A stretch of 64,000 nt of DNA. It comes from Massilimicrobiota sp. An134 (GTDB taxonomy: Bacteria; Bacillota_I; Bacilli_A; Erysipelotrichales; Coprobacillaceae). A program made the position numbers and the translations under genes. This document shows positions 17,051 through 22,988 of the stretch, one piece after another. Where the stretch lies: positions 1 to 64,000 of the forward strand of contig NZ_NFLH01000003.1 in the NCBI RefSeq assembly GCF_002160815.1. The letters are read 5' to 3'. Positions within the stretch are counted from its first letter, which is position 1, and every line of letters starts with the position of its first letter. The notes under the pieces were generated by a model. That model saw only the letters and a program-made list of their open reading frames with translations. It was not told the origin of the DNA and did no database searches.

Positions 17051-17078
17051 ATAAATAGACACATGGGTGTCTATTTAT
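17051..17078 (-). terminator. Terminator of pflA
   Basis: Perfect 12-base stem ATAAATAGACAC/GTGTCTATTTAT overlapping the pflA stop, with T's after it on the minus strand. Confidence 0.8.
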
Positions 17079-17817
17079 GATTGAGTGCATCTTTCATACC
17101 TTTTAAAACAACTTCTCTTGCTGTGATGGCATCTTTTTTATCTAATGGTGGAATACCTTCCAATGGATAATCAATACCTAAGTTCTTATATTTAGCAACA
17201 CCCATAGTATGATATGGTAAAACATCTAGAGCTTTGACATGTTTAAGGGTTGCGATAAATTGACCTAAACGATATAAATATTCATCATTTTGTGTAATTG
17301 TTGGAACAACAACATGTCTGATCCATAAATCAATACCCTTATCATCTACATATTTAGCAAATTTTAATATCATATCATTAGGTTGTGCAGTTAACTTTTT
17401 GTGTTCTTCAGGATCAATATGTTTAATATCTAACATAATTAAATTTGTTGAAGCTAACAAACGATCTAATTTCTTTAAGTATTCAGGATTTTCATGAAAA
17501 GTAATCCCTGACGTATCTAGACATGTGTGAATATTTTCTTCACGACATCTTTCAAATAATTCTATCAAGAAATCTAATTGCATCATGGGTTCTCCACCTG
17601 TACAAGTGATTCCTCCATTTTTATAAAACTCTTTCTTTGTATTAAATTCTTTGAGAATTTCATCAACTGTCATCTGTGTTCCCGTATTTGGTTTCCATGT
17701 ATCAGGGTTATGACAGTATAAACAACGCATTGGACAACCTTGAAAAAAGACTACAAAACGGATTCCAGGACCATCAACAGTTCCACAACTTTCTAAAGAA
17801 TGAATATATCCTTTCAT
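17071..17817 (-). CDS. pflA: Pyruvate formate-lyase activating enzyme (radical SAM)
   Basis: The start chosen is ATG 17817 (MKGYIHSLESCGTVDGPGIR), preceded by GGTGAG; the longer frame upstream lacks the family's look. The CxxxCxxC cluster motif is in QGCPMRCLYCHNP. Other radical SAM parts are GGEPMMQ and LDIKHIDP. The protein of 248 residues has the PflA length. It takes the hydrogen from the glycine of pyruvate formate-lyase using S-adenosylmethionine. Its substrate would be the separate 80-residue radical domain at 20435-20677. It stands alone, about 2.6 kb downstream of the pfl operon on the same strand. Confidence 0.95.
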   Translation of the reverse strand: MKGYIHSLESCGTVDGPGIRFVVFFQGCPMRCLYCHNPDTWKPNTGTQMTVDEILKEFNTKKEFYKNGGITCTGGEPMMQLDFLIELFERCREENIHTCLDTSGITFHENPEYLKKLDRLLASTNLIMLDIKHIDPEEHKKLTAQPNDMILKFAKYVDDKGIDLWIRHVVVPTITQNDEYLYRLGQFIATLKHVKALDVLPYHTMGVAKYKNLGIDYPLEGIPPLDKKDAITAREVVLKGMKDALNHK

Positions 17818-18004
17818 TATCTCACCAACTTTCTTTATTATTTTAACATATTTTCTATAAAATATCATTTCATATGTTTTATTTTTCAAACAAAAAGTAA
17901 CAAAATGTAACATTATCGTAAGCGTAGAATAAAATTTGTTAACTTAAACAATGATAATATAACTACTTTTAAACATGTAAATAATATACTCATCATTATC
18001 AGTT

Positions 18005-18048
18005 AAAAAAATAATATTTAATTCTATTAAATAGGATTAAATATTATT
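18005..18048 (-). terminator. Terminator of the toxin-antitoxin operon
   Basis: Long AT-only stem AATAATATTTAATTCTATT / AATAGGATTAAATATTATT, one to two mismatches, ending on the toxin stop, with T6 on the minus strand. Confidence 0.75.
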
Positions 18049-18316
18049 TCAATTTTACTGATGAGTTTAAATAAGCAATATCTTCAATAACAACAATCTT
18101 ATTATCTTCAAAAATAATATATAGTATTTCTAAATTTCTATTTGGTATTTTTACAACTCTACAATTTTTATTACTAACTCCATGACGATTATATAGTGGA
18201 TACATATATGGAAATTTTTCGATATTGTCTTTTATATGTTCCAATATATCAGATATAACTATATGATTTTCCTGAGCAAATATAAATATACTTTCATTAT
18301 ATTTGATATTATACAT
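18044..18316 (-). CDS. RelE/ParE-like toxin (putative)
   Basis: 90 residues ending in NSSVKLK. The predicted beta-rich C-terminal half (CRVVKIPNRNLEILYIIF then KIVVIEDIAYLN) has the pattern of RelE/ParE superfamily toxins, with an N-terminal helix (VISDILEHIKDNIEK). The antitoxin-like gene upstream ends two bases before the start, the usual antitoxin-toxin order. The protein would cleave mRNA at the ribosome or poison gyrase; which one cannot be read from the sequence. Assignment rests on size, order and fold pattern, not on a recognised active-site residue. Confidence 0.6.
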   Translation of the reverse strand: MYNIKYNESIFIFAQENHIVISDILEHIKDNIEKFPYMYPLYNRHGVSNKNCRVVKIPNRNLEILYIIFEDNKIVVIEDIAYLNSSVKLK

Positions 18317-18317
18317 A

Positions 18318-18533
18318 CTATAATCCTTCTTTTTTTAATATAGCAATCATTTCTTCATGAGTATAACTTTTTCTCTTATCTAATACAATTTCTTCTGCCT
18401 CTTTTACATGCTTTTTTATATATTCATTAGATTTATAATAATCGATTAATTCATTTAAAATATTCTTTGGAACTATGCAAACGTCATTTAAACTTGGAAA
18501 ATCTTTTATATCTATTTTTTGATTTAAATCCAT
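18318..18533 (-). CDS. Putative antitoxin of the RelE/ParE-like pair
   Basis: 71 residues from ATG 18533, with GGAG eight bases upstream (an in-frame GTG nearer the GGAG is less likely). Acidic and helical, with a C-terminal block ending SYTHEEMIAILKKEGL that looks like a toxin-wrapping or DNA-contact helix. No classic HTH or AbrB motif is seen. The gene precedes and nearly abuts the toxin. It would neutralise the toxin and, in this family, bind the operon promoter. Confidence 0.6.
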   Translation of the reverse strand: MDLNQKIDIKDFPSLNDVCIVPKNILNELIDYYKSNEYIKKHVKEAEEIVLDKRKSYTHEEMIAILKKEGL

Positions 18534-18626
18534 TACAATCACTCCTTTTTTTAATTATACCATTTATATACCAAATTTAAAACATTCTTATCCATATATT
18601 ATATTTATAAGGGTAGGTCAAATGAC

Positions 18627-19053: not shown

Positions 19054-19614
19054 TTACAATATCAAATATTCAATCAGTTTCATCATACCACATAATATCA
19101 TCACATATATAGGATCCATCTTTTTATACTGTAATAATATCATTCCAATTGCAAATATGATCATCATATCAATGCGCATAGATGATAAAGTATGGACTGT
19201 ATTTTCTCCAAAAAAAGCACTGACTAATATAGACACACCCGCAGTTGCAATCATCGCAATAACAGCTGGTCTTAACGTTTCTAATATACCCTGTAACATT
19301 GATAATTTTCTATATTTTAAATAGAAATAAGCTAACAAAGAAACAATGATGCATGATGGGAGTATACATCCAATGGTTGCAAATATAGCTCCCCATATAC
19401 CAGCAATTTTTTGACCAACAAATGTAGCAGAATTAATCGCAATAGGACCAGGTGTCATTTGAGAAATTGTGACCAAATCAGTAAACTCACTCAGTGATAA
19501 CCAAGGATGTAATGTCACCACCTGATTTTGAATCAATGGCAAGGCTGCATATCCACCACCAAAACTAAACAATCCCACCTGTAAAAAGCTCAAAAAAAGT
19601 TCCAGCAAAATCAT
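19054..19614 (-). CDS. chrA: Chromate transporter family subunit (second half)
   Basis: 186 residues with about five or six membrane spans. The N-terminal motif FSFGGGYAALPLI and the later TPGPIAINSATFVG are the ChrA signature (FGGG and PGP). It overlaps the preceding paralogous gene by four bases, and short ChrA proteins act as pairs of oppositely oriented subunits. In many gut anaerobes the substrate is unknown; export of chromate is the only tested role in this family. The start MILLELFLSFLQVG is directly at the overlap. Confidence 0.9.
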   Translation of the reverse strand: MILLELFLSFLQVGLFSFGGGYAALPLIQNQVVTLHPWLSLSEFTDLVTISQMTPGPIAINSATFVGQKIAGIWGAIFATIGCILPSCIIVSLLAYFYLKYRKLSMLQGILETLRPAVIAMIATAGVSILVSAFFGENTVHTLSSMRIDMMIIFAIGMILLQYKKMDPIYVMILCGMMKLIEYLIL

Positions 19615-20171
19615 CCATGATCACTTCCTTTATGATAAAACGTTCTGACAACCCCTATAGCAATACAAATCAATATCACATAAATCACATTGACATTAAA
19701 GAAACATGTGACAACAAATGCAATCATCATAATAGCATTGTTCATCCAACTCTTTGTTTTGATAAGATCTTTTGACATATCATAAACAACAGAACAAATC
19801 ACTGCACCTACACCTGCCTGCATTCCATCCAATATCAATTTAACATAAATATTGGATTGAAATATTTCATAAAACACAGAAATGGCGGATATAATGATAA
19901 ATGGCGGAATAATTGTTCCTAATATAGAAACCAATAATCCTGGTATACCTGCTATTTTATATCCAACAACAATGGCTCCATTCACCGCAATAGCCCCTGG
20001 TGATGATTGTGCTATAGCCACTAAATCTAACATTTCATCTTGATCAATCCAATGAAGTGTATCTACAAACTTCTTTTTCATCAATGTCACAATGACATAT
20101 CCTCCACCAAAAGTAAAGGCACTTAAATAAAGTGTAGATACAAATAATTGTATTAATTTATTATTCTTCAT
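19611..20171 (-). CDS. chrA: Chromate transporter family subunit (first half)
   Basis: 186 residues, paralogous to the next gene downstream. FTFGGGYVIVTLM and SSPGAIAVNGAIVVG are the ChrA motifs, the second with SPG instead of the PGP seen in the partner. About six membrane spans. The two half-size genes together equal the long ChrA protein. The start at 20171 follows AGTGATGAG. Confidence 0.9.
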   Translation of the reverse strand: MKNNKLIQLFVSTLYLSAFTFGGGYVIVTLMKKKFVDTLHWIDQDEMLDLVAIAQSSPGAIAVNGAIVVGYKIAGIPGLLVSILGTIIPPFIIISAISVFYEIFQSNIYVKLILDGMQAGVGAVICSVVYDMSKDLIKTKSWMNNAIMMIAFVVTCFFNVNVIYVILICIAIGVVRTFYHKGSDHG

Positions 20172-20397: not shown

Positions 20398-20426
20398 AAA
20401 AAAGGTGCTTAACTCAGCACCTTTTT
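20398..20426 (-). terminator. Terminator of the split pfl operon
   Basis: AAAAAGGTGCT/AGCACCTTTTT hairpin followed by T's on the minus strand, immediately after the 80-residue glycyl-radical gene. The three pfl genes have no other terminator between them. Confidence 0.9.
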
Positions 20427-20434
20427 CATCCTCA

Positions 20435-20677
20435 TTACATTGCTTCGTGGAATGTACGAGAAATAACATCATCTTGTTGTTCTTTTGTTAATTTAACAAA
20501 GTTAACAGCATATCCAGAAACACGAATAGTTAATTGTGGATATTTTTCAGGATGTTTTTGAGCATCAATTAATGTATCTCTGTTTAAAACATTAACATTT
20601 AAATGATGTCCTCCTTTTGAAGCATATGCATCTAACATTCCAACTAAATTTTCAACTTGTTGTTCACTTGCAGCCAT
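20435..20677 (-). CDS. Stand-alone glycyl-radical domain of pyruvate formate-lyase
   Basis: 80 residues. [11 protein letters not shown] then [33 protein letters not shown] and [10 protein letters not shown] match the C-terminal ~80 residues of full-length PflB almost block for block. Gly55 in RVSGYAVNF is the radical site. The gene has its own AAAGGAGGAG site and ATG, and it ends the operon. It is shorter than E. coli GrcA/YfiD (127 residues), which is only a repair spare. Here the main protein lacks its own radical domain, so this piece must supply it. PflA should act on it. Confidence 0.93.
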
Positions 20678-20691
20678 GATTTTCTCCTCCT

Positions 20692-20898
20692 TTAAAATTC
20701 ATCATCGTCATCCATTGGTAAATTTGGAATTTTACAAGCAGTATCACCACTATCACAATCCATCTTTGACACAACAGTGACTTCTTCCATTTCAATATGA
20801 GCATCTTCATTCACTTTGACATTAACATGTCCTGAACCAGAGCTCATGCGACCATCTAACATTTTGACTAGTTCATCAATTTCTTTTTGAGTGGCCAT
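20692..20898 (-). CDS. Glycyl-radical-domain paralogue lacking the radical loop
   Basis: 68 residues in the pfl operon between the catalytic gene and the radical-domain gene. Residues 6-31 ([12 protein letters not shown], then GHVNVKVN) parallel the start of the 80-residue radical domain ([20 protein letters not shown]). After residue 32 the similarity ends: instead of the PEKYP...RVSGYAVNF segment there is an acidic stretch with Cys48 and Cys55 (CDSGDTACK) and a DDDDEF tail. No radical glycine is present, so it cannot carry the radical. It could occupy the same docking cleft as the radical domain and so plug, protect or regulate the catalytic subunit. The role is inference. Confidence 0.8.
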
Positions 20899-20915: not shown

Positions 20916-22988
20916 TTAATCAAGATTTCCGTTTTTAATTGATTCGATATCTAAGTCACCAGCGAAAACTTGGTCGTCTTTTCCTAAAGCACCAGGGATG
21001 ACAGTAAATGTATTTGAAATACCATCTTGTGCATCTTTGAATGGTAATTTAGCAACTGATGATAATGAAGAAATAGCACCATGAGAATCTCTACCATGCA
21101 TTGGGTTAGCACCTGGAGCAAATGGTTGACCAGCTTTTCTACCATCAGGAGTATTACCTGTAGCTTTACCATATACAACGTTAGAAGTAATTGTTAAGAT
21201 TGAAGTTGTAGGATAAGAATTTCTATAAGTATGATGAGAACGTACCATTGCCATGAAAGTTTCAACTAACCAAGTTGCAATTTCATCAACTCTGTCATCA
21301 TCGTTACCATATTTAGGGAAATCTCCTTCTACTTCGTAATCAACAACAACTCCATCTTCATCTCTAATACATTTAACTTTAGCATATTTAATAGCTGATA
21401 AAGAGTCAGCAACGACTGATAATCCAGCAATACCTGTTGCGAAATAACGTTTAACTTCTCTATCATGTAATGCCATTTGAATTCTTTCATAAGCATATTT
21501 ATCATGCATATAATGAATGATATTTAACGCATTAACATAGACACCAGCTAACCAAGACATCATATCTACAAATTTAGCTTTAACATCTTCGTAATCTAAG
21601 TAATCACCTTCAACTGGTCTATATTTTGGTCCAACTTGTTTCTTAGTTTTTTCATCTACACCACCGTTGATAGCGTATAATAAACATTTAGCTAAGTTAG
21701 CACGTGCACCAAAGAATTGCATTTCTTTTCCAACTCTCATTGAAGATACACAACATGCAATTGCATAGTCGTCACCATGAGTTACTCTCATTAAGTCATC
21801 GTTTTCATATTGAATTGATGAAGTTTCAATTGAAGTTTTTGCACAGAATGCTTTGAAGTTTTCTGGTAAACGAGTTGACCATAAAACTGTCATATTTGGT
21901 TCAGGAGCTGTTCCTAAGTTAGATAATGTATGTAAATATCTAAATGAAGTCTTAGTAACCATATGACGTCCGTCAACACCAACACCACCGATTGATTCAG
22001 TTACCCAAGTTGGATCTCCTGCGAAAATTGAGTTATATTCTGGAGTTCTTGCGAATTTAACAATTCTTAATTTCATAATGAAATGATCAATAAATTCTTG
22101 GACTTCTTCTTCAGTGAATAATCCTTTCTTTAAATCTCTTTCTACATAGATATCAATAAATGTAGAAGTACGTCCTAAAGACATTGCTGCACCATTTTGT
22201 TCTTTAACTGCACCTAAATATCCAAAGTATAACCATTGAATAGCTTCTTGGCAGTTAGTTGCTGGTTTAGAAATATCAAAACCATATTTTGCAGCCATTT
22301 CTTTTAATTCACTTAAAGCTCTAATTTGTTCACTTAATTCTTCACGTAATTGAATAACTTTAGAAGTCATTCTCTTTTCAGTTGTCGCAAATTGATTTTT
22401 CTTATCTTCAATTAATTTATCTACACCATAAAGTGCAACTCTACGGTAGTCACCAATAATACGTCCACGTCCATATCCATCTGGTAAACCAGTGATAATA
22501 TGTGAAGAACGACAAGCTCTAATTTCTGGAGTATAAACATCAAATACACCTTGGTTATGTGTTTTTCTGTATTCTCTGAAAATATAAGAAACTTCTGGAT
22601 CCACTTTATATCCATTTGTTTCACAAGCTTGTTCAGCAATACGGATACCACCAAATGGTTGTAAAGATCTTTTGAAAGGTTTATCAGTTTGAACACCAAC
22701 AATTTTTTCTTTAGATCTGTCTAAATAACCAGCATCATGTGAAGTTAATGTTGATACAACTTTTGTATCCATATCTAAAACTCCACCAGCTTCTCTTTCT
22801 TGCTTAGTTAAATCCATAACTTGTGCCCATAAATCTTTTGTGTTTTGAGTAGGACCAGCCAAGAAAGAATCATCACCATCATATGGTGTGTAGTTTAATT
22901 GAATGAAATCTCTTAAATTCACTTCCTTGTTCCATTTCCCTGCTTGGAAACCATCCCAAGCATCATTCCATTTTTCTTTAAATGTCAT
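20916..22988 (-). CDS. pflB: Pyruvate formate-lyase catalytic subunit, lacking the glycyl-radical domain
   Basis: 690 residues against about 740-760 for standard PflB. It has the catalytic cysteine pair IACCVSSM at residues 412-413 and the barrel sequences throughout ([34 protein letters not shown]). It ends [15 protein letters not shown] followed by about 15 unrelated residues ([17 protein letters not shown]) and a stop, exactly where other PflB proteins continue into the radical domain. The enzyme converts pyruvate and CoA to acetyl-CoA and formate during anaerobic fermentation. The gene is first in a three-gene operon with the stand-alone radical domain. Confidence 0.95.

Follow-up and report, generated by a model that had tools for sequence, protein, structure and literature searches.

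A small protein encoded within a split PFL operon as a possible radical-free accessory subunit with a cysteine-peptide payload

The window, i.e. the whole stretch of 64,000 nucleotides that was analysed, carries three closely spaced genes on its minus strand in the order pflB', a small gene and grcA3. The pflB' gene (20916..22988) encodes a pyruvate formate-lyase (PFL) catalytic barrel of 690 aa which stops before the radical domain and covers positions 1-666 of the 744 positions of TIGR01255. The grcA3 gene (20435..20677) encodes a stand-alone glycyl-radical subunit of 80 aa with the motif RVSGYAV, which scored 165.1 bits against NF038360 (cut-off 158) and covers TIGR01255 positions 663-744. 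PflB' and GrcA3 thus make up one PFL that is cut just before the radical domain, the arrangement that defines a split PFL, in which PflB' is devoid of the radical domain and a separate gene encodes it. The small gene (20692..20898), which starts with ATG and encodes 68 aa including the two cysteines C48 and C55, is separated by 17 nt from the stop codon of pflB' and by 14 nt from grcA3. No second PFL1 was found in the window's genome, and the two other glycyl radical enzymes encoded there are distant (28-29% identity).

A probable intrinsic terminator, read by eye, lies 3' of grcA3 on the minus strand (20398..20426; stem AAGGTGCT / AGCACCTT followed by a T run). The terminator scan did not list this hairpin; a similar one was found downstream of grcA at another locus (L094). 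The pflA gene (17071..17913, minus strand), which encodes the PFL-activating radical SAM enzyme (TIGR02493, 301 bits, cut-off 231.75), is located 2.5 kb beyond grcA3, and its true start codon is probably downstream of the listed start of the reading frame. In most relatives pflA is much nearer to grcA, often immediately 3' of it. The interval between grcA3 and pflA in the window is occupied by a chromate-transporter-type gene pair (19054-20171, Pfam match checked for 19611-20171) and by two small adjoining genes (18044-18542), one with a weak match to the ParE toxin and the other a possible antitoxin.

The initial annotation had described the 68-residue reading frame as a duplicated and then reshaped copy of the radical domain, resembling the domain at its N-terminus, lacking the glycine loop and ending in an acidic tail with two cysteines. 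It is a real gene, with homologues in the window's family that are under purifying selection (mean pN/pS 0.163 over 12 genomes), and the description, with the duplication a partial one, was borne out by both alignment and profile-profile comparison. The local alignment of the small protein with the 80-aa radical subunit gave a score of 70, which was reached by none of 5000 shuffles, and hhalign matched small-protein residues 1-32 with GrcA residues 2-33 (probability 96.4%, E 1.2e-9). We refer to residues 1-32 (20803..20898, minus strand), which comprise a helix and the strand GHVNVKV and are homologous to GrcA3 residues 2-33 and to β10 of PFL, as the dock. The GrcA3 model NF038360 matched residues 3-31 only, with 20.6 bits against the cut-off of 158, and similarly weak matches over the dock were found in 11 of 14 diverse homologues. 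Homology to PF01228/GrcA is therefore present in the region of the β10 strand, and the resemblance to GrcA3 stops past residue 32. There is no RVSGY loop in the small protein, and the RVxGY loop with the radical glycine is absent from all 19 members in the family as well as from the distant members. In E. coli PFL, β10, which lies within the region equivalent to the dock, is replaced by the own first strand of YfiD (PMC8683613).

Where the glycine loop would be, the small-protein family conserves the motif D-C-x3-7-C-x-[ITV]-P-[NT] and an acidic end. This cysteine peptide, residues 44-68 in the window (20695..20769, minus strand), is referred to as the payload. In 11 genomes that do not have the small gene, PflB' itself ends in the same peptide, as exemplified by DLDCSNGACGTPTLFEGLDAE in G252, DCGPNEACKIPNLEIGLDDE in G342 and NDECEGQACKIPNLD in G328. 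These tails were recorded among 60 split-PFL loci, 20 more loci from genomes and the viral loci; the count of 11 includes G234, whose degenerate tail departs from the full motif, and G251, which was placed in this class by hand from its C-terminus (SVDSACNIPNL). Both cysteines and the proline are invariant across 18 payloads from both arrangements, and the spacing of the cysteines varies. Since the same peptide occurs either on the small protein or on PflB', the small protein looks modular, composed of a GrcA-like dock and a cysteine payload. That this peptide is a module in its own right had escaped the initial annotation. A metal site as the main reading was rejected, since no more than two cysteines are conserved and the distance between them is variable. 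No clade-specific extra cysteines that might serve as partners of the payload were found in PflB'.

The small gene is present in 19 of the 43 genomes of the window's family (38-94% identity). It lies directly upstream of a stand-alone grcA in all 19 carriers, and between pflB' and grcA wherever the contig permits the check. None of the 23 genomes of the family with a one-piece PFL carries it, and one further genome has no PFL1. Beyond this family, at least 11 genomes have a more distant small gene between pflB' and grcA; ten belong to a second family (G136, G137, G214-G217, G248-G250 and G277) and one to a third (G520). In a tree of 93 PflB sequences, from which the tail had been excluded by trimming the alignment, all 38 payload-bearing PflB' proteins (27 accompanied by the small gene and 11 with the tail) form one clade (SH-aLRT 97), and the payload occurs in 0 of the 42 other split PFLs and 0 of the 13 one-piece PFLs. 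The tail-type enzymes branch first within this clade, and three more (G234, G252 and G253) nest within the three-gene group. A single clade for the three-gene state was rejected by the AU test (p 0.006), which means that the cis and trans forms interchange. With tail types at the base and others nested, the payload was probably a tail first and became a separate protein later, with at least one further switch.

The suggested co-occurrence of the small gene with split pfl thus stood in the window's family. It did not extend to split PFL in general, which does not need the small gene: the 42 other split PFLs have neither the gene nor the peptide, and 11 carry the tail. Split PFL is widespread in the window's class, and most of these 42 PflB' proteins are about 660-680 aa long and stop directly behind the LGK motif. 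In the phylum sample no match to the small gene was found outside the window's class, nor was any homologue found in plasmids, phages or viral contigs. Viral contigs do carry GrcA and split PFL, in each case without the small gene. The large viral contig IMGVR_UViG_3300028591_000126 (L218/L287) has a split PFL without the cysteine peptide (L218), and other large viral contigs (L215-L217, L219-L226) encode a stand-alone GrcA of 74-82% identity, none of them with the cysteine peptide; grcA of L223 adjoins an activase-like gene. The split PFLs of two further viral contigs, L268 and L286 (IMGVR_UViG_3300031992_000074 and 3300028833_000149), contain three in-frame stops in place of tryptophan residues, as though TGA encoded Trp, and a grcA reading frame lies directly upstream of pflB'. 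Extra grcA copies away from pflB' also occur in split-PFL genomes (G024:C44, G053:C3, G054:C11 and C1, G139:C6, G479:C1); these stand-alone copies are possibly spare parts.

AlphaFold2 was run on a single-chain fusion in which the L094 small protein follows its PflB' by in-frame read-through of the pflB' stop codon, as that genome happens to permit. A first run with 22 alignment rows was too poor for use (pLDDT 62). The fusion model (pLDDT 73.3, pTM 0.80) matches E. coli PFL in the structural alignment (2pfl, Z 49.6), and the small protein is modelled as a helix (697-712, pLDDT 63-78), a strand (717-724, pLDDT about 58), a second strand (727-733) and a disordered tail. The payload tail has a pLDDT below 50, so that the placement of its cysteines is not reliable. 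When the low-confidence parts were left out, the match to 1cm5 placed model residue 723 (N30 of the small protein) on PFL residue 710, and sequence homology gives the same register (H24 of the small protein corresponds to H25 of GrcA and to PFL residue 704, hence N30 to 710). The model thus puts, with moderate confidence, the dock strand into the β10 slot normally taken by the strand of the radical domain; the docking place was read from the ranges of the structural alignment, and the homologous sequence, the short linker and the shallow alignment all favour this answer. Such a placement makes plausible the earlier proposals that the protein plugs the cleft or competes with the radical subunit.

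Considering all these results, we assign a probability of roughly 45% to the reading that the small gene encodes a radical-free accessory subunit of split PFL which presents a dithiol tail to PflB'. The dock, copied from the beginning of the radical domain, would fill β10 of PflB', the slot that the first strand of GrcA3 needs, and the small protein would take this slot when the radical subunit is out, i.e. before loading, during activation or after its destruction by oxygen. The payload would then be a flexible two-cysteine peptide brought to the open active site with the C412-C413 pair of PflB'. We infer that its role is redox-related: most likely it would act as a dithiol reductant or hydrogen donor, like the C-terminal cysteine tail of class I ribonucleotide reductase (RNR), keeping the active-site cysteines as thiols or returning them to this state, or quenching a stray radical. 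Fresh GrcA3 would displace the small protein. In the related enzymes the payload is joined to the end of PflB' itself. The 42 split PFLs that manage without the peptide count against this model. The more specific version, in which an RNR-like dithiol tail serves PFL either in cis or in trans by means of a decoy copy of the radical domain seated in the slot of the radical subunit, is tentative and, on balance, doubtful. It also speaks against the model that, to our knowledge, PFL completes its normal cycle without any outside reductant, which leaves an RNR-like tail without an obligatory task. No thioredoxin-like gene was found beside the operons, save one putative motif match in L181.

The dock homology and the modelled β10 placement in the homologous register are also consistent with another function, in which the small protein is a placeholder that fills β10 while PflB' is free of the radical subunit, and thereby covers the open barrel or competes with GrcA3. 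The sole task of the cysteines would in this case be to form a disulfide which fixes the shape of the small protein or, in air, sets it free. The same strand position is needed by GrcA3, as follows from the first strand (y-β1) of YfiD (PMC8683613). However, the peptide is kept without the dock as a PflB' tail in 11 genomes, and its conservation there argues for a role of the peptide independent of plugging. We regard the placeholder function as a minor though realistic option.

The small protein might alternatively be a loading factor which mimics the stub that YfiD must recognise on cleaved PFL (residues 696-733 of the E. coli enzyme, β10 included) and recruits GrcA3 and/or PflA to the stub-less PflB'. 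When residues 696-733 are missing, E. coli PFL barely binds YfiD or activates it (PMC8683613). Part of this region is copied in the dock, and pflA lies downstream of the operon in most relatives. This function is nevertheless unlikely: 42 split PFLs whose PflB' ends before the stub have no such protein, and the tail-type enzymes retain only the cysteine peptide and no strand. Even less probable is a half-site filler, by which one PflB' protomer would bind GrcA3 and the other the small protein, so that one radical per dimer is enforced. The same slot would be usable by both proteins, and half-site reactivity of PFL was reported in vitro according to work cited in PMC12338860, but E. coli in vivo data do not support it (PMC12338860) and the tail-type enzymes would be left unexplained. 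That the gene is a functionless, decaying leftover of a grcA duplication, as a partial copy of the neighbouring gene without the glycine might suggest, is hardly credible in view of the purifying selection and of the position and motif conserved in 30 genomes of three families.

PFL, which some gut bacteria make as two proteins rather than one, holds a central place in the fermentation of gut anaerobes and is very sensitive to oxygen. The accessory dithiol subunit proposed here may protect or reset this enzyme. The stand-alone radical subunit is already known as the named NCBI family GrcA3; the accessory protein and the payload alternating between cis and trans are new. In Pfam there was no match for the window protein and only weak matches for its homologues, and no NCBIfam cut-off was reached by the small-protein family. 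Neither the small protein nor its profiles nor the payload produced a meaningful match when searched against PDB sequences, and a literature search, which covered few subscription journals, revealed no paper on a split PFL with such a protein. If the RNR-like reading is true, PFL would gain its first known subunit for redox repair or radical quenching. The natural cis/trans variation of the payload opens experiments on how the active site is guarded while the radical domain is away.

Among known systems, GrcA/YfiD (NF038360 GrcA3, TIGR04365) is closest to the dock: residues 1-32 of the small protein share the helix and the HxNVxV strand, the genes are adjacent and the partner is a PFL barrel without its own radical domain. 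Unlike GrcA/YfiD, the small protein has no glycine loop and no C-terminal helix but ends in an acidic tail with two cysteines, and it is therefore unable to harbour a glycyl radical. We know of small accessory subunits for just a few glycyl radical enzymes. The β and γ subunits of BSS and the γ subunit of HPAD are likewise proteins of 7-10 kDa made together with a glycyl radical enzyme; BSS β controls the radical, and further accessory subunits of such enzymes may still await identification (PMC12590467). Those subunits bind [4Fe-4S] clusters, in BSS within a HiPIP-like fold, whereas the small protein has a dock derived from the radical domain and just two conserved cysteines across the 18 payloads.

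The C-terminal cysteine tail of class I RNR extends to the active site, and thioredoxin or glutaredoxin returns it to the reduced form (PMC5704485). The C-terminus of E. coli NrdA (DDGCESGACKI), a comparison picked after the fact, scored 10.7 bits against the payload profile, a value reached by 1 of 5000 free shuffles (0.02%) and by 8 of 5000 shuffles with the cysteines fixed (0.16%). The search of the PDB with the payload profile did not find NrdA at E values up to 10. Given this PDB result and the post hoc choice, the payload is to be taken as something that works like the RNR tail rather than as such a tail itself, and its resemblance to the NrdA redox tail appears at the motif level only. 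The payload differs from the RNR tail in the variable spacing of its cysteines, the proline after the second cysteine and the acidic end; moreover, it resides on a separate protein in the window, and PFL has no known turnover disulfide. Both systems have a flexible C-terminal pair of close cysteines beside a ten-stranded radical barrel, with similar residues of the xACKI type. The conserved cysteine pair is found near the C-terminus of either the small protein or PflB', the tail is disordered in the model, and in the 11 relatives with the tail the peptide is joined to the barrel subunit, as in RNR.
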